Positions 26,746 through 40,277 of a stretch of 64,000 bases of DNA are shown here, one piece after another (position 1 is the first letter of the stretch; each line of letters starts with the position of its first letter). The stretch is from NCBI GenBank assembly GCA_013349405.1, contig DUZS01000017.1:1-64000 (forward strand), in the 5' to 3' direction. The DNA is from Desulfuromonadales bacterium. Its GTDB lineage: Bacteria; Desulfobacterota; Desulfuromonadia; Geobacterales; Pseudopelobacteraceae. The position numbers were made by a program, and so were the translations under genes. Below the pieces are notes generated by a model, which had not been told where the DNA came from, ran no database searches, and saw only the letters and a list, made by a program, of their open reading frames with translations.

Positions 26746-27372
26746 TCATCCGGAAGGAATCTGCTCGGCAATAAACGCCCAGCGGGCCAGACTTGCTGCG
26801 TTGGGCGCGTCAAGTTTCCTCATCAGGTTCGCCCGGTGTACCTCCACGGTGTTGGGGCGCAGATCAAGACGTCGGGCAATCTCTTTGGACGTTACACCCT
26901 GCCCGACCATCTGCAAAACTTCCCGTTCACGGTCGGTAGTCTGATGACGGAGAATATAAATTTCAGCCTGAAAAAATGCATTTTCACCTTGCTGACGGAA
27001 CAATCCGATGCGGTAGAGGCGGCTGACCACCGCAGAAACCAACTCTTCGGAAGTAAACGGCTTGGTCAGATAGTCGTCGGCTCCTTCGCACATGCCACGA
27101 CGTTGATCGGCACGATCCACCTGTCCGGTAACAAATATGAACGGTATATCAGCAAAAGCCCGTTCATTCTTCACCGCTTCCAATACGGCGTGACCATCCA
27201 TATTCGGCATCATAATATCGCACAAAATCAGATCCGGTCGTTTTTTATAAAGCAGATCAAGACCGGATTGACCATCTAACGCGCACCGGACATCGAAACC
27301 TTCCTGCTTCAAAACAGATTCCATATAGATGCGGCTTGTTTCATCATCTTCGAAAATCAGAATTGAATACAT
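26746..27372 (-). CDS. LuxR/NarL-type response regulator
   Basis: This 208-residue regulator has a receiver (Asp52, LCDIMMPNMDG; Lys in LTKPFT) and a C-terminal LuxR helix-turn-helix (DREREVLQMVGQGVTSKEIARRL, then NTVEVHRANLMRKL). It is a close paralogue of the regulator at 13094, most similar in the receiver. It starts 24 bp after the archaemetzincin stop, so it is the last gene of a five-gene operon. Its kinase is not obvious: the kinase of this operon pairs better with the sigma-54 regulator. Confidence 0.92.
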   Translation of the reverse strand: MYSILIFEDDETSRIYMESVLKQEGFDVRCALDGQSGLDLLYKKRPDLILCDIMMPNMDGHAVLEAVKNERAFADIPFIFVTGQVDRADQRRGMCEGADDYLTKPFTSEELVSAVVSRLYRIGLFRQQGENAFFQAEIYILRHQTTDREREVLQMVGQGVTSKEIARRLDLRPNTVEVHRANLMRKLDAPNAASLARWAFIAEQIPSG

Positions 27373-27396: not shown

Positions 27397-27927
27397 CTAC
27401 AACAACCCTCTCAGTAACTCCTGACATCTGCTGCACATTTCCCCGGATTTCTGGTCAACTTCTTCCACGTACGTCGATGATTTCATCACACAGCTCTGAT
27501 TATTGCAGTGAATGAGGCCGAAATTGTGCCCCAATTCATGTATCGCCTCTTTAACAAGGCGTTCCGTGAGCAGACCCCTGTCTTCCGGCAGGCCGTAAAA
27601 TTTATTGTTCAGGCGATGTAGCGCGATTACCGATCCGATTCCCCTCAACTGAGCTTCACCGAAAACAAATGTCAGAACCGGAATAAACAGATCGACATTT
27701 ACCACACCAAGTACCTTCACCGCATCAGCAGGTGGCCGGGTAATGATCTGCAGCAGTATCCGGGAAGAGTGGTACTGATGCCGTGCCGGGTCAAATGCAT
27801 GTTCAAGATCGATATCAAGATTCGCCACTTTCGTATGATACCCGAAAACGGTATACACACTTTTTTCCAGCTCTTCAATCCAGGGGAAATGATCGGTTTT
27901 AATCGGCTGAATGTAGATATATGGCAT
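27397..27927 (-). CDS. amzA: Archaemetzincin-family zinc metalloprotease
   Basis: This 176-residue protein shows the full archaemetzincin signature: HELGHNFGLIHC near residues 127-138, then NNQSCVM with the next Cys and the Met-turn, and the closing CSRC pair. The first motif provides the catalytic zinc ligands and Glu; the Cys residues bind a second zinc. No signal peptide is seen, so it should act in the cytoplasm. Substrates of bacterial members are unknown. It starts 2 bp after the sigma-54 regulator stop and ends 24 bp before a LuxR-type regulator gene, so it is firmly inside a signalling operon. Confidence 0.93.
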   Translation of the reverse strand: MPYIYIQPIKTDHFPWIEELEKSVYTVFGYHTKVANLDIDLEHAFDPARHQYHSSRILLQIITRPPADAVKVLGVVNVDLFIPVLTFVFGEAQLRGIGSVIALHRLNNKFYGLPEDRGLLTERLVKEAIHELGHNFGLIHCNNQSCVMKSSTYVEEVDQKSGEMCSRCQELLRGLL

Positions 27928-27929
27928 AA

Positions 27930-29300
27930 TCAGTGCGGCATGTCATTTTTACTTTTTTTCAGTTGATATTTTTCAATTTTATTATACATGGTCAGCCTGC
28001 TTACCTTGAGTATTGCCGCTGCCTGAGCTATGTTGCCGTTGGTCAGATCAAGAACCTTCTGTATATGAATTTTTTCCACTTCATCCAGTGACGGCAGCGT
28101 TTCTTTTATGTCAGTTTCGACTACCGGAAAGAAGAAAGAGAGATCATCCAGTTCAACAAGAGTGCCTCTGGCAACAACCATGGCCCGCTCGATGACATTG
28201 CGCAATTCCCGGATATTTCCGGGCCAGTTATATTCCACCAGCATATCAAGCGTATCCTGGGAGATATCAAGAACGTTTTTGTTCATGGACTGGGAATATT
28301 TCTTTATGAAAAACCGTGCCAGAGCAGGTATGTCGAGCGTGCGGTCCCGCAGAGGCGGAATGGCAATAGTCACAACGTTCAGCCGGTAATAGAGGTCTTC
28401 TCTGAAACTCCCCTCTTGAACCGCACGCTCAAGGTCGTGGGTGGTTGAGCAGATGATGCGGAAATCCACATCTATCTTCTTGTCGCCCCCAAGACGGCTG
28501 AACTGCCTGGTATCGAGAACCCTCAGGATATCCGCCTGCATTTTTTCGCTGATATGCCCTATTTCATCAAGAAATATCGTCCCCTTGTCTGCCATCTCAA
28601 GCCTGCCCTGACGCCGGTACAAGGCTCCGGGGAACGCACCTTTCTCGTGGCCGAACAGTTCACTCTCCAGCAGGCCATCGGAGTACGCCCCGCAATTAAT
28701 AGTAATAATCGGAAAATATTTCCTGCTGCTCTGGCTATGGATTGCCCGGGCGATGAGCTCCTTTCCGGAACCGTTTTCACCCTTGATGATCACGGTCGCA
28801 TCCGTCTGGGCCACTTCAAACACCTTCTCCAGAACTTTCTTTATCTCAGGGCTTTCCCCGATTATTTCATCGGAGAAAGAGATATCATCAATATGCTGAC
28901 GCAGCTGACTGTTTTCGTGCATCAGCCTGCGCTGCTCGACGGCATTGCGGATCAGATGACTCATGTCGTCAGGATCAACAGGTTTGACGATATAATCAAA
29001 CGCCCCCTCTTTCAGCGCCTGTATGCTTGTCTCCACAGAGGCAAAAGCGGTGATCATGATGGTAATAATATTTTTATCGATTTTTTTGATCCTTCTCTGC
29101 AGCTCAAGGCCATCGATTCCGGGCATCTTGATATCAAGCATGACAATATCCCACGGCCCCTGCTGCAGCTTGAGAAGTGCGGCGTTGGCATCTTCTGCAG
29201 AGCTGACGCTATAGCCATCCAGCTCAAACCACTGGCTGAGGGCATCGCGAATTGAGGCTTCATCATCTACAATCAATATTTTTATGTCCGATGGTTTCAT
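27930..29300 (-). CDS. Sigma-54-dependent NtrC-family response regulator with GAFPGA loop
   Basis: This 456-residue regulator has a receiver (Asp56, IVMLDIKMPG), an AAA+ domain (about 140-370; Walker A GENGSGKE, Walker B GTIFLDEIG) and a C-terminal Fis-type helix-turn-helix (NIAQAAAILKVSRLTMYNKI). The sigma-54 contact loop reads GAFPGA (residues 221-226) instead of GAFTGA, so the conserved Thr is Pro. The other AAA+ motifs look intact. The gene follows the Cache kinase by 13 bp, a classic NtrB/NtrC-like pairing. Whether it still opens sigma-54 promoters is uncertain because of the loop change. Confidence 0.93.
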   Translation of the reverse strand: MKPSDIKILIVDDEASIRDALSQWFELDGYSVSSAEDANAALLKLQQGPWDIVMLDIKMPGIDGLELQRRIKKIDKNIITIMITAFASVETSIQALKEGAFDYIVKPVDPDDMSHLIRNAVEQRRLMHENSQLRQHIDDISFSDEIIGESPEIKKVLEKVFEVAQTDATVIIKGENGSGKELIARAIHSQSSRKYFPIITINCGAYSDGLLESELFGHEKGAFPGALYRRQGRLEMADKGTIFLDEIGHISEKMQADILRVLDTRQFSRLGGDKKIDVDFRIICSTTHDLERAVQEGSFREDLYYRLNVVTIAIPPLRDRTLDIPALARFFIKKYSQSMNKNVLDISQDTLDMLVEYNWPGNIRELRNVIERAMVVARGTLVELDDLSFFFPVVETDIKETLPSLDEVEKIHIQKVLDLTNGNIAQAAAILKVSRLTMYNKIEKYQLKKSKNDMPH

Positions 29301-29313
29301 GCGTTATAACCGC

Positions 29314-30762
29314 CTATGTAGGTATGTTTTCTGTATACTCACGGGGAAGAGTAATCGTAAAGGTAGTGCCGACGGTAAGTTGTGATTCGACCTGTATGCT
29401 GCCTGAATGCTGCTGCACAATACCATACACAGCGGAAAGTCCAAGCCCGAGACTGCTGTTATTGTCTTTTGTCGAGAAAAAAGGATCAAAAATGAAGGGA
29501 AGATCATTTTCGGCGATGCCATGGCCATGATCGATTACCTGAATCTGAACGGTGTCACTGCTGGAATAGTCTGTCCGCACCACAATCCGGCTCCCCTGCG
29601 GAGAGGACTCCATAGCATTTACGATCAGTGACACGAGAATCTGTTGAATCGTGCCGGGATCACAGCAGATATCATCATCTCCGGAGTCGAGTTCAGCGAC
29701 CAATTCCAGTTCTTTCATTTTTGCGCTGTGGTCAATGATCCTGGTACTTAACGTAACAACTTCATTCAGGTGAACATGGCGCACATGAGCCTGGGTTTGT
29801 TTGGCAAAGAGCAATAAGTTTTTTACGATTTCACCACACCGTTTTGCCTCGCTAGCCACGATAGACAGATTGTTTACCACCGTGGTAATAGTTGCTTCAG
29901 AAAGATTTTCTTGCAACAGGTATCTGCTTGACAGTTTTGCATAGGATAAAATGCCTGACAGCGGGTTGTTTATTTCATGGGCCACCATGGCAGACAACTT
30001 GCCGAGAGAAGCCATTTTCTCCGATAATGCCAGTGATGATTTCATCTGATCGAGCTCAAGTGTTGCCTCTCTTTCCTTTTTGTGAGTCGTATAACTGACC
30101 GTAATGATGCAGACCAGTATCAGGAAGTTGAATATGCAGATAACAAATGCCGCAACCATGCCGTTCTGAATTAATTTGGAGATTTCGTTTTCAATATCTT
30201 CAACATAAATGCCGGTGCCAACGACCCATTTCCAGGGCACAAACTCCCTGACGTACGATATTTTCGGTGTAATATTTGAGGAGTTGTCATTTTCCTGCCA
30301 CTTGTAACTGACAAACCCGGCCCCTGATTCTGCGACGACATTTACAATTTCCTGAAAGACCTTCTTGCCGTCAAGATCACTGTAATTGCTCAAATCCTTG
30401 CCATTCAGGTCGCTGCGGTACGGATGCACTATCATTCGAGGCGTCATGTCATTGATCCAGAAGTAATCCTTAAACTCCTGGCCGTAATGCATGTTTTTTA
30501 TCTGCTCAATCGCAAGCTTTTGAGCCTGTTCAACAGTAAGTTTGCCCTCCTTTTCATCTTGATGGTATTTGGCAAGGACACTCCAGGCCGTTGTTGTCAG
30601 AGCTTTGATCATCTCCTTTTTTCGTTCCATGCTGCTGTTGCGTATCGTCGGAATGAAAACATACATAAAGACCGACGTAAAAAGAACAATTGTCAGCACC
30701 GTCGGCACCACAACGCGCAGTGTAAACGTCTGCCAGGGAAATGATTTATGGGGAGTTATCAT
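29314..30762 (-). CDS. Cache-domain sensor histidine kinase, NtrB-like
   Basis: This 482-residue kinase has an N-terminal membrane helix (about 12-35), a periplasmic single-Cache domain (about 40-195; YFWINDMTPRMIVHPYRSDL and FVPWKWVVGTGIY are diagnostic), a second helix (about 200-220), HisKA with His near 262 (MVAHEINNPLSG) and HATPase_c (DHGHGI, GLGLSAVYGIV). It has no PAS domain. sCache domains often bind small organic acids. It pairs with the sigma-54 regulator just downstream and shares its sensor type with the protein upstream. Confidence 0.93.
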   Translation of the reverse strand: MITPHKSFPWQTFTLRVVVPTVLTIVLFTSVFMYVFIPTIRNSSMERKKEMIKALTTTAWSVLAKYHQDEKEGKLTVEQAQKLAIEQIKNMHYGQEFKDYFWINDMTPRMIVHPYRSDLNGKDLSNYSDLDGKKVFQEIVNVVAESGAGFVSYKWQENDNSSNITPKISYVREFVPWKWVVGTGIYVEDIENEISKLIQNGMVAAFVICIFNFLILVCIITVSYTTHKKEREATLELDQMKSSLALSEKMASLGKLSAMVAHEINNPLSGILSYAKLSSRYLLQENLSEATITTVVNNLSIVASEAKRCGEIVKNLLLFAKQTQAHVRHVHLNEVVTLSTRIIDHSAKMKELELVAELDSGDDDICCDPGTIQQILVSLIVNAMESSPQGSRIVVRTDYSSSDTVQIQVIDHGHGIAENDLPFIFDPFFSTKDNNSSLGLGLSAVYGIVQQHSGSIQVESQLTVGTTFTITLPREYTENIPT

Positions 30763-30807: not shown

Positions 30808-33435
30808 TTAAACGTCACCCGGCAGGCCGGTAAAGTCATAACTGAGACGAGTCTGGTAGTTTTTTGTCTGGGTAAAGATTTCCTTGAGCAGATGCTGCTC
30901 AACTGACGTGAGCTTTTTGGGGAAGACCATATTGTCAGGCTGTTTACTCCCGCTCGAAACAGCGTCCGCCTGTATGGTAAGCCGCATCTGCATGAGAAAG
31001 CTATACGCCTGCACCATCTCCTTATGACTCAGGTCGGTAAGTATTTTCAGATCGCGAAGCGCATCAAGCCTTTTTATGGTATTAGCGGTAGTAATTTCAT
31101 GTTTGAGTGCATAAATCCGTGCAAAATCAACAATCGGTACCATCGCTTTCTTGATATCCAGTCCCCCCCGGTTGTCACCCGATGTCTCGACAATAAACTT
31201 ACCGAAGCGGCCGATCGGCGGTTCCATAATAAGAATATCCCTGGCAAGGATTTGCAGAAAGCGGAAGTTTTCACTGACGACTCTGATAAGATGATCTTTC
31301 AAGCCATTCACCATGGCTGCATCGCCAAAGGCACAGCGAAAATCGAAGAAAATTTTCGTCCGGAGCAAATCTTCTCCGGTTGCCGAATAAACCCATGTGC
31401 CGAAATACTTTTTCCAGACAGAGACCGGCTGACATAATTCAGGATTCATTGCCATGTTTTTGCCTTTACAGAACAGATACCCCGCATCATTGAGCCAGGT
31501 ACAGACTGTTTTTCCCAGAGCAAGAAAGTATTCTCTGACAGAATCTTCCCGTTCCGGTGTGACATCTTCATAGACGATGGCATTATCCTGATCGGTGTGA
31601 AGCGTCTGCTCCTCGCGTCCCTCACTGCCGAAAACCATAAAGGCAAAAGAGGCAGGTGGTGTACCCAGCTGTTCTATGGCACATTCGATAAACTTCTTCC
31701 GTACTGCGTCATTGATCGCCGTTGTCAGGCTATTGACACTCTGAGGTTTTGCACCACTCTCGATAAAAGTTGCAATAAGGTGCGGCTGAATGGCGTTCAA
31801 CCTGATAATCTCGTCTGGTACCTGGGCAGAGCTGATTTCACGCAGCAATAGTGACGGGGAACAATTCCGGATAGCCTGGAGTTCTGTAGTAGTAATGCAT
31901 CCTGTTGCATGACTGTCTTCAAAATGCTGATTAAAGAACATAACCGTGGACTGCAGCTCGGCAAGCAACGTTCTCCTTGCCTCTTCTCTCACGAACAGGT
32001 CCGAAACATCCTCCATAATGCCATCAAAGAATTGAACATCACCATCATCGTTATAGATGCTGACTCCCCAGATAGAGGCAGAAAAAAGTGAGCCATCTTT
32101 TCTTCTGATCTTCGTGACTTCGCGCCTGAGCTCGCCCTCCCCTGCTTTCACGGCCAGCCGTGCATACTCTTGCTGATCAGGGTATACTGTGGAAACCGGT
32201 TCGGCGAGCAGGCTCTCTCTCGAGTTATACCCAAGCAGCTCTACCAGCGCCGGGTTGGCTTCCACAAACCTCGGATCCGGAGCGGTGGTCATCCTGAAGA
32301 ACCCCACATTCAGGTTATTTGCCATAGTCCTGAATTTTTCTTCACTTGCGCTCAGTGCATCCTCTACTTTTTTTCTGTGTGTTATGTCGGAGACAACGGC
32401 CATGAAGCCGCTCCTGCCTCCCAAAAAAATCCGGGTGGCAGAAATGGTCACATCATAGCGTGTGCCCGTTTTACTCTCCAGATGGGCTTCAAATCGTTCC
32501 GGTACCTGCCTCCCTGCCAGCAGATCCCGCAGGCATTCATTTCCCGGCGACGTCTCAAGCCAGGTGAATGCTTCCTCTGTATGTACGCCTGAAAGTTCGC
32601 TTTGCGAGTATCCGAGCATATCAGAAATTGTCTGGTTCACATACATCAGCGAACCCTCCAGCACCATAAACATACCTTCAGACGCTGACTCAACAAGTGT
32701 TCGATATTTCTCTTCAGAGTCACGCAGAGCTTTTTCTGCGAGCTGTTGTTTTTTCAATGCGTTGTAACTCTGGGCGTCGATATAGAAGAGGAGCACCGAG
32801 ATCAGCAGAAGAATCAGCAGAGATATCTGAATGAGACTATTGGTAATTGACGCAATTTCTTCCTTAACATCGTCAAGATAAACACCGGTCCCGATTATCC
32901 ATCCCCAGGGAGCAAATCCTTTCACATAAGAAATTTTTGGCAGAATGCGCTTTTCTTCGTCTTTCCATTGCCATGTGTATTCAACATAGCCGTCACCTTT
33001 GCTTTCAACAAGCTTGACCATCTCGTTAAAAATACGTTTTCCTTCAGAATCTGAAAACGTAGAGAGATCTTTGCCGTTCAGGTCAGGGCGATAGGGATGA
33101 ACCACCATGCGGGGATGCATATCGTTAATCCAGAAATAATCTTTCATTTCATGGCCGTAACGCAGATTCTGTATCTGATCAATGGCCTGCCGCTGCGCCT
33201 CCTCCCGGGAAATCAGCCCTTTTTGCGCATCGTGTTCGAGCTTCGCAAAAACATTCCCTGCGGAGGTGGTCAGCTCCCGGATCATCTCCTTTTTTCTGTC
33301 AATATTGTTTTTTTCAATTATCGGGATGATTATCAAAAATAGAGCTGTTAAAAAAAGTACAATAGTGATTATGGTAGGAAAGATGAAGCGCGCGAGAAAG
33401 GACATCATTCTTTTTGTCTTTGTATCAATGTTCAT
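30808..33435 (-). CDS. Cache-PAS-PAS protein with DUF294 nucleotidyltransferase domains
   Basis: This is an 875-residue membrane protein. A membrane helix (about 12-35) is followed by a periplasmic single-Cache domain like its neighbour's (YFWINDMHPRMVVHPYRPDL), a second helix (about 205-225), two PAS units (about 240-360, 365-485) and a C-terminal half made of a DUF294 nucleotidyltransferase-like domain (GSEGREEQTLHTDQDNA near 600) and DUF294_C (about 720-860). DUF294 is related to the uridylyltransferase part of GlnD. The metal-binding Asp pair (TDQDN) is intact. There is no kinase domain. It is the first gene of the five-gene operon. Target unknown. Confidence 0.9.
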   Translation of the reverse strand: MNIDTKTKRMMSFLARFIFPTIITIVLFLTALFLIIIPIIEKNNIDRKKEMIRELTTSAGNVFAKLEHDAQKGLISREEAQRQAIDQIQNLRYGHEMKDYFWINDMHPRMVVHPYRPDLNGKDLSTFSDSEGKRIFNEMVKLVESKGDGYVEYTWQWKDEEKRILPKISYVKGFAPWGWIIGTGVYLDDVKEEIASITNSLIQISLLILLLISVLLFYIDAQSYNALKKQQLAEKALRDSEEKYRTLVESASEGMFMVLEGSLMYVNQTISDMLGYSQSELSGVHTEEAFTWLETSPGNECLRDLLAGRQVPERFEAHLESKTGTRYDVTISATRIFLGGRSGFMAVVSDITHRKKVEDALSASEEKFRTMANNLNVGFFRMTTAPDPRFVEANPALVELLGYNSRESLLAEPVSTVYPDQQEYARLAVKAGEGELRREVTKIRRKDGSLFSASIWGVSIYNDDGDVQFFDGIMEDVSDLFVREEARRTLLAELQSTVMFFNQHFEDSHATGCITTTELQAIRNCSPSLLLREISSAQVPDEIIRLNAIQPHLIATFIESGAKPQSVNSLTTAINDAVRKKFIECAIEQLGTPPASFAFMVFGSEGREEQTLHTDQDNAIVYEDVTPEREDSVREYFLALGKTVCTWLNDAGYLFCKGKNMAMNPELCQPVSVWKKYFGTWVYSATGEDLLRTKIFFDFRCAFGDAAMVNGLKDHLIRVVSENFRFLQILARDILIMEPPIGRFGKFIVETSGDNRGGLDIKKAMVPIVDFARIYALKHEITTANTIKRLDALRDLKILTDLSHKEMVQAYSFLMQMRLTIQADAVSSGSKQPDNMVFPKKLTSVEQHLLKEIFTQTKNYQTRLSYDFTGLPGDV

Positions 33436-33541
33436 AAATATCGTTATACAGGATAAAGGGTAGATTTGTCATCTTGTAACAGCTTTTCGTAGTGATGTGG
33501 TACGATCATACGGTAGAAAAAAATATTTCGGATGGGGTTAT

Positions 33542-34189
33542 ATGCGCAGTGTACTGTTAGTTTTCATAGCTTATTTCATTTCATATACGTCGGAGTTACA
33601 TGCAACTGAACGTGCAGTCAGTCGCTTCGACACTGAAGGACTGTCAGGCTGGGAGTCAAAGAGTTTCAAGGGGACAACTGAATACCGGCTGATAAAGGAC
33701 GAAGGCAGAGTTGTCGTTAAAGCAACCAGTCATAATTCGGCGTCAGGAATGATCCGGAAAATCAGTTTTCAGCCGTCCAAATATCGGTATTTACGCTGGA
33801 ATTGGAAAGTAACCGGAACCATAAAGGGGGGCGACGAGAAGACCAAAGCCGGTGATGACTACGCCGCTCGTATATACGTTGTATTTCCAGGCAGATTCTT
33901 TTGGCAGACAAAAGCGATCAATTACATTTGGGCGAATAAGCTGGCGAAAGGGGAATCGATTCCAAATGCCTTTACCGCAAACGCCGGAATGATCGCGGTG
34001 GAGTCAGGCAACAGTGACGCTGGTCAATGGCTGAACGAAGAACGGGATCTGCTGGCCGACTACCGCTCCCTGTTCGGCACCGATCCTCCGGACGCTGAAG
34101 CGATTGCCATCATGACCGATACCGATAATACCGGCGGGACTGCAGAAGCGTGGTACGGTGATATTGTCCTTGCAACGGAGAGGAAATAA
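33542..34189 (+). CDS. DUF3047 secreted protein
   Basis: The likely start is 33542 (MRSVLLVFIAYFISYTSELHA), giving a signal peptide and a mature protein of about 194 residues. The domain is DUF3047: RYLRWNWKVTGTIKGGDEKTKAGDDYAARIYVVF and MTDTDNTGGTAEAWYGDI are the family's marks. Function is not established; the family is common in Geobacter-like and other Gram-negative bacteria. It reads away from the signalling operon, so 33436-33541 holds divergent promoters. The glycosyltransferase gene starts 6 bp after its stop. Confidence 0.85.
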   Translation: MRSVLLVFIAYFISYTSELHATERAVSRFDTEGLSGWESKSFKGTTEYRLIKDEGRVVVKATSHNSASGMIRKISFQPSKYRYLRWNWKVTGTIKGGDEKTKAGDDYAARIYVVFPGRFFWQTKAINYIWANKLAKGESIPNAFTANAGMIAVESGNSDAGQWLNEERDLLADYRSLFGTDPPDAEAIAIMTDTDNTGGTAEAWYGDIVLATERK

Positions 34190-34195
34190 CTCCCC

Positions 34196-35257
34196 ATGCT
34201 TCAGTCACGGACTACGTTACTTTCTGTTATTATTCCAACTCTCAATGAAGCAGAAAACCTGCCCTCTCTTCTCGCTGACCTCAAACAGCAGCAGAACATC
34301 ACGCTTGAAATTATTGTCGGCGATGGCGGCTCGACGGATGCAACGCAATCAGTTGCCGAATCCTCCGGCGCCACCTTTGTCAGTGCGAGGCGGGGGCGCG
34401 GGGCCCAGATGAACGCTGCCACTCTCCGGGCCTCCGGTGACTATCTCCTTTTTCTGCACGCAGATTCCCGTATAGAAGCCCCCTCCCTTCTCAGTAATGC
34501 CGTTGCTGCACTTATCACGGAGCAATCCGAACCGGGCCGGATTGCCGGTCACTTCCGCCTCCGTTTTATCCGTACGACAAAACTGAATGCGGTAGCCTAC
34601 CGCTACGCCGAGGAGAAAACCGCCTTCAACCGGGTGAATACCACCAACGGTGACCAGGGTTTACTCCTCTCCCGTGAGTTTTTCAAATACCTTGGCGGCT
34701 TTGATGAAAGCATGCCGTTTCTGGAAGATCAGCGCATTGCCGAAAAAATCAGATTGGAGGGGCGGTGGATGACGCTCCCCGGATATCTCAAAACGTCGGC
34801 GCGACGCTTTGAAGCAGAAGGCTTTCACCGCCGCTATATCCTGATGAGTATGATGATGGGATTGTACAGCATTGGTGAACAGAAATTCTTTGAACGTGCG
34901 CCGGGGGCTTATCAGGTGCAACAGGAGACCGGTTCCCTGTTCCTGTCACCGTTCTTTGCCCTTATATGGCTGATGATGCGCAAGGAGTGGGGATTACGGG
35001 GGTCTCTTCGAGTATTCTACCTGTTGGGGCGCTATATCCGCCAGAATTCATGGCAGATGTTTTATTTTTTTGATATCAGGTTTCGATCGCTGCTTGGCAC
35101 AGACAGGTATCCATTTTTGAATTTCCATGATCGGTTCTTTGCACCATGTACAAACTTCCGGGTCTGTAATGCACTCACCGGTCTGCTCTGTTTTGTCTGG
35201 TTTATGATGATACTTGCGCCGTACTTCCGGGTTGTTGACCAGAGGTGGCGGAGTTAG
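34196..35257 (+). CDS. TIGR04283-type glycosyltransferase with long C-terminal extension
   Basis: This 353-residue protein has a GT2 core (SVIIPTLNEAENLPSLL, IVGDGGSTD, GRGAQMNAAT, LFLHADSR, NGDQGLLLSREFF) matching the selenodomain-associated transferase family (TIGR04283), whose members usually have about 220-230 residues. Here about 120 extra residues follow, with two hydrophobic segments (LFLSPFFALIWLMM and LLCFVWFMMILAPYF) suggesting membrane attachment. It is co-transcribed with the DUF3047 gene. The acceptor sugar or lipid is unknown. Confidence 0.85.
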   Translation: MLQSRTTLLSVIIPTLNEAENLPSLLADLKQQQNITLEIIVGDGGSTDATQSVAESSGATFVSARRGRGAQMNAATLRASGDYLLFLHADSRIEAPSLLSNAVAALITEQSEPGRIAGHFRLRFIRTTKLNAVAYRYAEEKTAFNRVNTTNGDQGLLLSREFFKYLGGFDESMPFLEDQRIAEKIRLEGRWMTLPGYLKTSARRFEAEGFHRRYILMSMMMGLYSIGEQKFFERAPGAYQVQQETGSLFLSPFFALIWLMMRKEWGLRGSLRVFYLLGRYIRQNSWQMFYFFDIRFRSLLGTDRYPFLNFHDRFFAPCTNFRVCNALTGLLCFVWFMMILAPYFRVVDQRWRS

Positions 35258-39648: not shown

Positions 39649-39945
39649 CTAAGCTGTTTCAGGCACTATGGCCAGCTTGAGACCCATACCGTGCAGAATA
39701 TTGTAAAAAGTGCGTAACTCTGGATTGCCGCCTTTCGAGAGTGTACGATATAGATTTTCACGCTTAAGGTTAGAACGCTCAGCTATAGTTGCCATGCCGC
39801 CCTTGGCTTGCGCTACTCGGCGCATGGAAAGAAGCAACACATCACGGTCGCCCTCTTCTATGGCTGCCGTCAGATATTCAGCGGCATTATCGGAATCTTT
39901 AAGCCATTCGTTCAGATCTTGTTCGTAGTCCGTCATTTGTCGCAT
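39649..39945 (-). CDS. HigA-like antitoxin (putative addiction module antidote)
   Basis: I place the start at the ATG at 39945, behind AGGAG. The 98-residue protein fits the TIGR02684 antidote family: DYEQDLNEWLKDSDNAAEYL, then a helix-turn-helix DNA-binding domain (GGMATIAERSNLKRENLYRTL, SKGGNPELRTFYNIL). It should neutralise the upstream toxin and repress the operon. It overlaps the toxin gene by 13 bp. Toxin-first order is normal for this family. Confidence 0.9.
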   Translation of the reverse strand: MRQMTDYEQDLNEWLKDSDNAAEYLTAAIEEGDRDVLLLSMRRVAQAKGGMATIAERSNLKRENLYRTLSKGGNPELRTFYNILHGMGLKLAIVPETA

Positions 39946-40277
39946 GATTTGTTCTCCTGATGTTTTTTCCAATAAGCAATGGCGGTTTCAATATCTTGTT
40001 CTTGAGTAGTTTTGTCGCCGCCAAGGAGCAACAGTACGATTTGATTGCCGGAATGCGCATAATAAACACGATATCCGGGGCCGTAATGGACACGCAGCTC
40101 AAAAACCCCAGCACCTACGTTTTTGTGATCACCTACATTGCCAAGTTCTACCCGTTCAAGTCGAGTTGCAATACGAGCAAAAGCAGAACGGTCGCGCAAA
40201 CCATAGAGCCATTTTTTGAATGGCTTTTCTCCAGTTGCGTCAGTGTAGTAGTTAAGTTGGTATGGAGTTGTCTGCAT
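39933..40277 (-). CDS. RelE/HigB-like toxin (addiction module killer protein)
   Basis: This 114-residue toxin matches TIGR02683 killer proteins: KPFKKWLYGLRDRSAFARI, RLERVELGNVGDHKNVGAGVFELRVHYGPGYRVYY and the GDKTTQEQDI ending. The family is RelE-like and cleaves mRNA at ribosomes. The gene has no strong ribosome site. An operator candidate lies just upstream at 40287-40302. Confidence 0.9.
   Translation of the reverse strand: MQTTPYQLNYYTDATGEKPFKKWLYGLRDRSAFARIATRLERVELGNVGDHKNVGAGVFELRVHYGPGYRVYYAHSGNQIVLLLLGGDKTTQEQDIETAIAYWKKHQENKSCDK

Follow-up and report, generated by a model that had tools for sequence, protein, structure and literature searches.

The 64,000-nucleotide stretch analyzed here (the window; contig DUZS01000017.1 of a Desulfuromonadales bacterium) encodes a membrane protein in which a periplasmic sCache_2 domain and two PAS domains are joined to a DUF294–DUF294_C module. 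We regard the protein as a DUF294 variant that is membrane-bound, carboxylate-gated by prediction and, in its clade, devoid of CBS domains. The explanation that we favor, with about even confidence, is a transmembrane receptor for C2/C3 carboxylates with a GlnD/GlnE-like nucleotidyltransferase output, which would transfer a nucleoside monophosphate (NMP) onto a cytoplasmic partner. The evidence comprises the architecture, a conserved ligand pocket, conserved residues of the presumed active site, the operon, and the genes that recur beside related sensors.

Sensor gene and predicted carboxylate pocket

The gene is a single uninterrupted open reading frame (ORF) with an ATG start (Table 1). Pfam assigned the sCache_2 domain at 143 bits (cut-off 25), DUF294 (PF03445) at 147.2 bits (gathering cut-off 21) and, after it, DUF294_C (PF10335) at 133.9 bits (gathering cut-off 22.5). 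Two hydrophobic stretches (19-residue windows starting at residues 10–25 and 194–206) lie on either side of the Cache domain. The Pfam order, these two stretches and the single ORF bear out an earlier note on this DNA, which had read a DUF294 domain with an intact GSEGREEQTLHTDQDN motif, fused to a membrane Cache–PAS–PAS sensor. Neither cNMP (PF00027) nor CBS (PF00571) was matched in the protein by Pfam at E 0.01. Three separate genomes (loci L007, L008, and L014) encode orthologues of identical layout and 82–84% identity. In the three comparisons, the ratio of nonsynonymous to synonymous substitution rates (dN/dS) was 0.11–0.12 for the whole gene and 0.07–0.11 for each of the sCache and DUF294 parts. 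Judged by the orthologues and by the dN/dS values of these parts, the gene is neither a chance frame nor an assembly fusion.

By sequence, the Cache domain came closest in the PDB to PscD (5g4y, and 5g4z soaked with propionate) and Adeh_3718 (4k08, crystallized with acetate). PMC5062169 identifies 5G4Y as the propionate-free and 5G4Z as the propionate-containing structure of PscD, and lists Tyr90, Trp92, His103, Phe126, Tyr143, Trp145, and Lys156 as the propionate contacts. These were placed by hand on the window protein through the PDB alignment, in which the chain numbering is shifted by nine throughout. All seven are kept (Table 1). They are likewise identical in 21/21 sensor-type DUF294 proteins and in 5/5 histidine kinases, namely the one encoded next to the sensor in the window and its relatives in L007, L008, L014, and L027. 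Within the genome of the window, the complete set was found in the sensor and its kinase only. The other sCache_2 loci L103, L104, and L105 have five, four, and six of the contacts, respectively, and the L106/L107 pair, which represents one protein, has four, with just five columns aligned. Since the seven contacts are kept in all 21 sensors and in the neighboring kinase, the ligand is probably a C2/C3 carboxylate.

The sCache_2 domain and all seven propionate contacts are shared with chemoreceptors of the PscD/McpP/Adeh_3718 type, whereas the predicted output of the window protein is a nucleotidyltransferase. MctS regulates a monocarboxylate permease. Sensor kinases of the MctS type gave the top NCBIfam match of residues 32–239 of the window protein (NF052443, 89.6 bits), far under the full-length cut-off of 700, and their output is a kinase.

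Predicted nucleotidyltransferase module and neighboring genes

Eight residues near the presumed active site (G603, S604, G606, R607, E609, D615, D617, and D698) were invariant in 75/75 DUF294 modules, the window included; the GSxGR and DxD motifs were thus fully conserved. GlnE and GlnD, soluble nitrogen regulators, also combine a nucleotidyltransferase with a helical domain. Both are encoded in the same genome (NCBIfam matches above cut-off). In hhalign, the DUF294 family was aligned with the C-terminal half of GlnE (probability 95.2, E 2.8e-8, 242 columns) and with GlnD (probability 92.5, E 4.7e-7), including the GSxGR-like and DxD motifs. The earlier note had counted on the metal-binding residues standing in active-site position. 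This was upheld for both DxD acids, which align with GlnE and GlnD, but not for a third acidic ligand, since the acid of the GlnE KIDTR motif faces a glycine in the DUF294 family and has no counterpart at that column. D698 lies opposite the Asp of the MDAR motif in GlnD.

Two AlphaFold models of the module were built, both from the same four sequences, and are of too low a quality for side chains to be positioned. In Foldseek, DrrA was the sole match at E <0.001 for each model, and GlnE ranked after it for the second (E 0.0018); no other match lay under E 0.002. VIA ranked DrrA and GlnE first with Z values of 8.8–11.1 overall (root mean square deviation, rmsd, 2.4–16 Å), which are also typical of helical models with no clear match; for the better model, Z was 10.2–10.8 and rmsd 2.4–12.2. 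These matches are weak and not independent, because the models are poor and share their four sequences. A GlnE/DrrA-like fold is thus weakly supported by the modeling. DrrA (SidM) is a protein AMPylator, described in PMC3710099 as a secreted Legionella toxin, and a profile search of PDB sequences gave no match between it and the DUF294 module. PMC3710099 also groups the DUF294_C helical domain with GlnD/GlnE, in a class without a conserved HEPN motif. The module is probably an active nucleotidyltransferase.

The genes next to DUF294 loci were counted for the 17 sensor loci outside the window clade (the four loci of that clade have no phosphoesterase) and for Cache-less controls. The latter (n = 54) were without sCache by selection. 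Forty of them (L061–L100, 436–709 amino acids, aa), drawn from ranked hit lists and assumed to be soluble, were used for the counts. Only one neighbor was available, owing to a contig edge or the 800-base gap limit, for the controls L078 and L091 and the sensors L029 and L055. A calcineurin-like phosphoesterase was the next gene in 10/17 sensor loci, at distances of −40 to 37 bases, and in L027, L029, and L030 the stop and start of the two genes overlap. A model that had been trained on these very phosphoesterases detected none beside the 40 controls (E 0.01). The search was repeated with Pfam on the immediate neighbors: Metallophos matched 10 of the 32 sensor neighbors, and was not among the first 25 of the 59 Pfam families listed for the 78 control neighbors. 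Conversely, a DEDD exonuclease (RNase_T) was the next gene in 29/40 control loci and 0/17 sensor loci. The Fisher test yielded p values of 4.5e-7 for the phosphoesterase and 1.5e-7 for the exonuclease, with the loci treated as independent although they are related.

The phosphoesterases belong to one superfamily and fall into three subtypes: that of L027–L030, that of L009 with L056–L058 and L060, and that of L011. Within the ten-sequence set, the subtypes matched one another at BLAST E 6e-4 at best, with no clear orthology. This points to more than one recruitment. NCBIfam indicated a weak resemblance to YfcE-type phosphodiesterases. A search of the genome of the window for a phosphoesterase elsewhere, with the L029 subtype as the sole query and no positive control, found none. 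That genome also encodes a Cache-less cNMP-CBS-DUF294 paralogue (L016:5618-8408), divergent and about 50 bases from a PDEase_II protein of the metallo-beta-lactamase fold. Among DUF294 loci outside the 40 controls, the exonuclease was near L032, L035, L040, L041, and L043, and none of the tested partners was near L016, L036, and L039.

A transporter, in keeping with a carboxylate ligand, was encoded within 4 kb at 11/17 sensor loci (seven SSS, two MFS, and two SatP/YaaH), and the MFS transporter of L010 scored 404 bits against the NCBIfam L-lactate transporter cut-off of 320. Acetyl-CoA synthetase was the next gene in 16/40 control loci. The SSS transporter was also near 13/40 controls, and its link is therefore family-wide. 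Two-component genes were also present near several control loci. No description of a gene group of Cache-less DUF294 protein, DEDD exonuclease, and acetyl-CoA synthetase was found in the literature searched.

The cNMP-CBS-DUF294 signaling proteins, which we take to be the COG2905 type, share with the window protein the DUF294–DUF294_C module and the same invariant residues. They differ in having cNMP and CBS domains as input, in place of a transmembrane sCache–PAS–PAS input, and the exonuclease as neighbor in 29/40 loci. They too are tied to acetate and carboxylate uptake, by the acetyl-CoA synthetase gene and by Pflu5625, which is annotated with cAMP-binding, CBS, and nucleotidyltransferase domains and belongs to the CrbS/R (acetate) regulon of Pseudomonas fluorescens (PMC5715377). 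Because of these annotated domains, Pflu5625 is probably a DUF294 protein.

Proposed mechanism and rival explanations

In the mechanism that we propose, an acid such as acetate, propionate, pyruvate, or lactate would bind the periplasmic sCache_2 domain. The signal would pass the membrane and the two PAS domains and alter the activity of the DUF294–DUF294_C module, which would attach NMP to a cytoplasmic partner. The likeliest partner is a histidine kinase, response regulator, or transporter that belongs to the same pathway of carboxylate uptake or signaling. We lean slightly toward a protein as the target; that it is specifically the neighboring regulator or kinase is rather unlikely. Reversible nucleotidylation, as in GlnE and GlnD, serves as our working model. 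Nucleotidylated proteins are phosphodiesters. RNase Z is reported to remove AMP from SelO targets (PMC12663964), a precedent for a nuclease as an AMPylation eraser, although the folds of both writer and eraser differ from those at the DUF294 loci. On these two grounds, we propose that the DUF294 module may be a writer and the adjoining phosphoesterase an eraser, which would remove the nucleotide in 10 of the 17 sensors outside the window clade. In the window clade, where both the CBS stretch and the phosphoesterase neighbor are absent, reversal would fall to the enzyme itself or to something encoded elsewhere.

A wider reading would make these proteins a receptor class of at least two phyla, which converts external short-chain carboxylates into internal covalent nucleotidylation, often (10/21) with a dedicated phosphodiesterase eraser. 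Across DUF294, more than one hydrolase family would have supplied the erasers: the sensors would have acquired calcineurin-like phosphoesterases, the Cache-less proteins DEDD exonucleases, and one paralogue in the genome of the window a class II phosphodiesterase. This wider reading is possible, though on balance doubtful. If true, it would add a further kind of output to Cache receptors. Bacteria would couple external acetate-class acids to nucleotidylation by a writer–eraser system alongside two-component signaling whose receptor has an identical ligand pocket. The sensor variant gives the DUF294 family a predicted ligand, a predicted signaling direction and, in the relatives, a candidate antagonist enzyme, and makes this long-uncharacterized family testable.

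Several observations weigh against the proposed mechanism. The neighbor counts are uncorrected for descent, and the phosphoesterase is absent at 7/17 sensor loci and at 4/4 loci of the window clade. Transporters of the SSS family are not sensor-specific (13/40 controls versus 7/17 sensors). Partial pockets are common, as the other sCache_2 domains of the genome retain four to six contacts. In addition to the glycine opposite the KIDTR acid and the unspecific VIA scores, both AlphaFold models are poor, with mean predicted local distance difference test (pLDDT) values of 59.1 and 52.5. A search of PDB sequences with the profile of the module gave six matches up to E 10, the best (E 0.042) being an unrelated chain, and no nucleotidyltransferase. 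The literature search returned no activity report for any DUF294 protein, with a search term that also catches DUF2946. According to PMC5715377, the Pflu5625 mutant of P. fluorescens had no phenotype.

The strongest rival, still somewhat doubtful in our estimate, gives the module a product other than a modified protein: a nucleotidylated small molecule or RNA, or a diffusible nucleotide signal, which the neighboring hydrolase would degrade. The same hydrolase partners would fit such a product: the recurrent ones (phosphoesterase in 10/17, RNase_T in 29/40, and one PDEase_II) belong to nucleic-acid and nucleotide hydrolase families, and the Cache-less relatives bear nucleotide-binding cNMP and CBS domains. 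Set against this, the best fold matches, on poor models, are protein adenylyltransferases, and PMC3710099 places the fused helical domain together with GlnD/GlnE.

It is quite unlikely that the protein is mainly a receptor or scaffold, whose DUF294 module would bind the kinase or a nucleotide and adjust two-component signaling with no covalent transfer. The glycine in the column of the third acidic ligand of GlnE would agree with such a role, and the adjoining kinase has the same ligand pocket, so that both could form one receptor complex. Eight residues invariant in 75/75 modules from two phyla and a dN/dS value of about 0.1 are, however, hard to explain for a non-enzyme. Ordinary reshuffling of a common sensor and a common output (sCache_2 and DUF294 both being common families), with inherited gene blocks behind the neighbor pattern, is the least likely of the explanations. 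In its favor, four of the ten phosphoesterase cases come from one genome family (f58), and the phylum of L009 contributes five; the three phosphoesterase subtypes with no clear orthology speak against it.

The earlier note's candidate transmembrane nucleotidyl-transfer sensor therefore stands as a membrane sensor that has intact GSxGR and DxD motifs, resembles adenylyltransferases on poor models, and heads a kinase–regulator operon; the transfer itself we infer. Beyond that note, the analysis points to the ligand class, to a Cache domain that the kinase has as well, to the loss of the CBS stretch, and to a metallophosphoesterase beside related sensors. A toxin–antitoxin system of the MntA–HepT type, in which a small separate antitoxin nucleotidyltransferase accompanies a HEPN RNase toxin, was considered and rejected: the window has one 875-aa membrane protein, which heads a kinase–regulator operon, and the GlnD/GlnE/DUF294_C class is listed in PMC3710099 as lacking the conserved HEPN motif.

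Distribution, descent, and operon

Proteins of the sCache–DUF294 architecture were found in at least 8/395 genomes of the phylum draw and at least 7/277 genomes of the class, and, in two draws that overlap and come from the phylum and the class to which L009 (Bacteroidales) belongs, in at least 5/247 and at least 3/198 genomes. All these counts are lower bounds because of the E-value limits. In the phylum draw, 16 of the 17 listed frames of at least 750 aa were checked (all but G492 C53), and shorter frames, unless retrieved, were taken as non-sensors. The architecture, which the earlier note had treated as out of the ordinary, is uncommon and recurrent; it is not unique, as it occurs in more than one phylum. 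No published Cache–DUF294 protein was found in the literature search, and PMC4822843 mentions neither DUF294 nor nucleotidyltransferase. PF03445 itself matched in 273/277 genomes of the class, 28 of these only at E 7.5e-8 or weaker; such weak matches may be GlnD or GlnE. Thirty stretches of viral contigs fitted a search pattern, and none encodes a relative.

The earlier note had named CBS and a cyclic-nucleotide domain as the usual company of DUF294. This was broadly right: among 14 Cache-less DUF294 proteins scanned with Pfam, nine had both, three had CBS without cNMP (one of them with PAS), and two had neither. Pfam found CBS in 17/17 sensors outside the window clade, and the number of PAS domains varied, with one in L011 and no match above the limit in L059. 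The four proteins of the window clade have an in-frame gap of about 100 residues in the CBS stretch, the end of which is retained in the alignment (GCITTTELQAI versus GVINSKDIAAI in L027). The window clade lies in a supported clade with L027–L030 (100/100), although its exact sister is weakly supported (96/47). Because L027–L030 all have CBS and the phosphoesterase, the simplest reading is that both were lost on the window branch. All sensors fall inside one supported clade of 35 rows, along with 14 Cache-less rows. Sensor monophyly appeared in none of 200 bootstrap trees; the sensor label needs three changes, and the starred branches force two.

In the window, the sensor is followed on the same strand by the kinase, an NtrC-type regulator, an M54 metallopeptidase, and a REC-LuxR regulator, with gaps of 45, 13, 2, and 24 bases. 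The order from sensor to M54 is kept in L007, L008, and L014, in none of which the REC-LuxR gene has a clear counterpart. The window-type sensor was found in 4/277 genomes of the class, and three further genomes hold distant CBS-type sensors. At E 1e-90, kinase orthologues were present in 4/274 genomes of the class, the same four. Outside the class, one run in L027 brings together the sensor and the phosphoesterase with the kinase (651 bits) and a regulator that is truncated where the contig ends (642 bits), and in L037 the kinase, regulator, and M54 adjoin the genes for an MFS transporter and for a cNMP-CBS-DUF294 protein that has no Cache domain. On account of these two runs, the kinase–regulator module accompanies DUF294 proteins of two different input types.

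Table 1. Sensor parts and operon genes by position in the window
Feature	Position	Strand	Basis
Whole gene: sCache_2-PAS-PAS-DUF294-DUF294_C membrane protein, 875 aa	30808..33435	-	Single ORF, Pfam, orthologues L007/L008/L014
First transmembrane segment, ~residues 10-43	33307..33408	-	Hydropathy scan
Periplasmic sCache_2, residues 45-198; predicted contacts Y100, W102, H113, F136, Y153, W155, K167	32842..33303	-	Pfam, pocket alignment
Second transmembrane segment, ~residues 194-224	32764..32856	-	Hydropathy scan
PAS 1, residues 242-352	32380..32712	-	Pfam
PAS 2, ~residues 366-490 (Pfam stretch 391-474)	31966..32340	-	Pfam, alignment
Stub at the site of CBS in 17 other sensors, residues 504-522	31870..31926	-	Alignment
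DUF294 nucleotidyltransferase domain, residues 551-686	31378..31785	-	Pfam
Motif GSEGREEQTLHTDQDN, residues 603-618, including D615 and D617	31582..31629	-	Residue conservation
FFDFR motif, residues 696-700; D698 invariant 75/75	31336..31350	-	Conservation; D698 aligned with Asp of MDAR in own GlnD
DUF294_C helical domain, residues 725-868	30832..31263	-	Pfam
Histidine kinase with own sCache_2 and the same seven carboxylate contacts	29314..30762	-	Pfam, pocket alignment
NtrC-type response regulator; GAFTGA replaced by GAFPGA	27930..29300	-	Pfam
M54 (archaemetzincin-type) metallopeptidase, HELGHNFG intact	27397..27927	-	Pfam
REC-LuxR response regulator, at the end of the run	26746..27372	-	Pfam

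The GAFTGA motif is the sigma-54 contact. In the NtrC-type regulator it reads GAFPGA in 4/4 copies of the window clade and GAFTGA in L037 and L033, with the L027 copy cut by the contig end. Given this substitution, the regulator of the window clade may work other than through sigma-54. The sigma-54 pattern TGGCAC-N5-TTGC, with one mismatch allowed, supported no promoter in the window (6 matches versus 5.6 expected), in L007 (2 versus 1.3) or in L008 (0 versus 1.9). The M54 metallopeptidase accompanies the kinase–regulator pair in five loci (the window, L007, L008, L014, and L037). The MFS transporter that adjoins the operon in L007 and L008 is present in the genome of the window on a different contig. 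Between this transporter and M54, L007 (at L007:9642-10469) and L008 encode a protein that by eye is lipoyl/GcvH-like; in the genome of the window, it lies with the MFS transporter on the other contig. Next to the sensor, positions 33497-35257 hold a divergent pair of DUF3047 and glycosyltransferase family 2 genes (Pfam), which also adjoins the sensor in L007 and was not seen in L008. Two adjacent small genes on the minus strand at 39649-40277 look HigA/HigB-like by eye (XRE and RelE-type).

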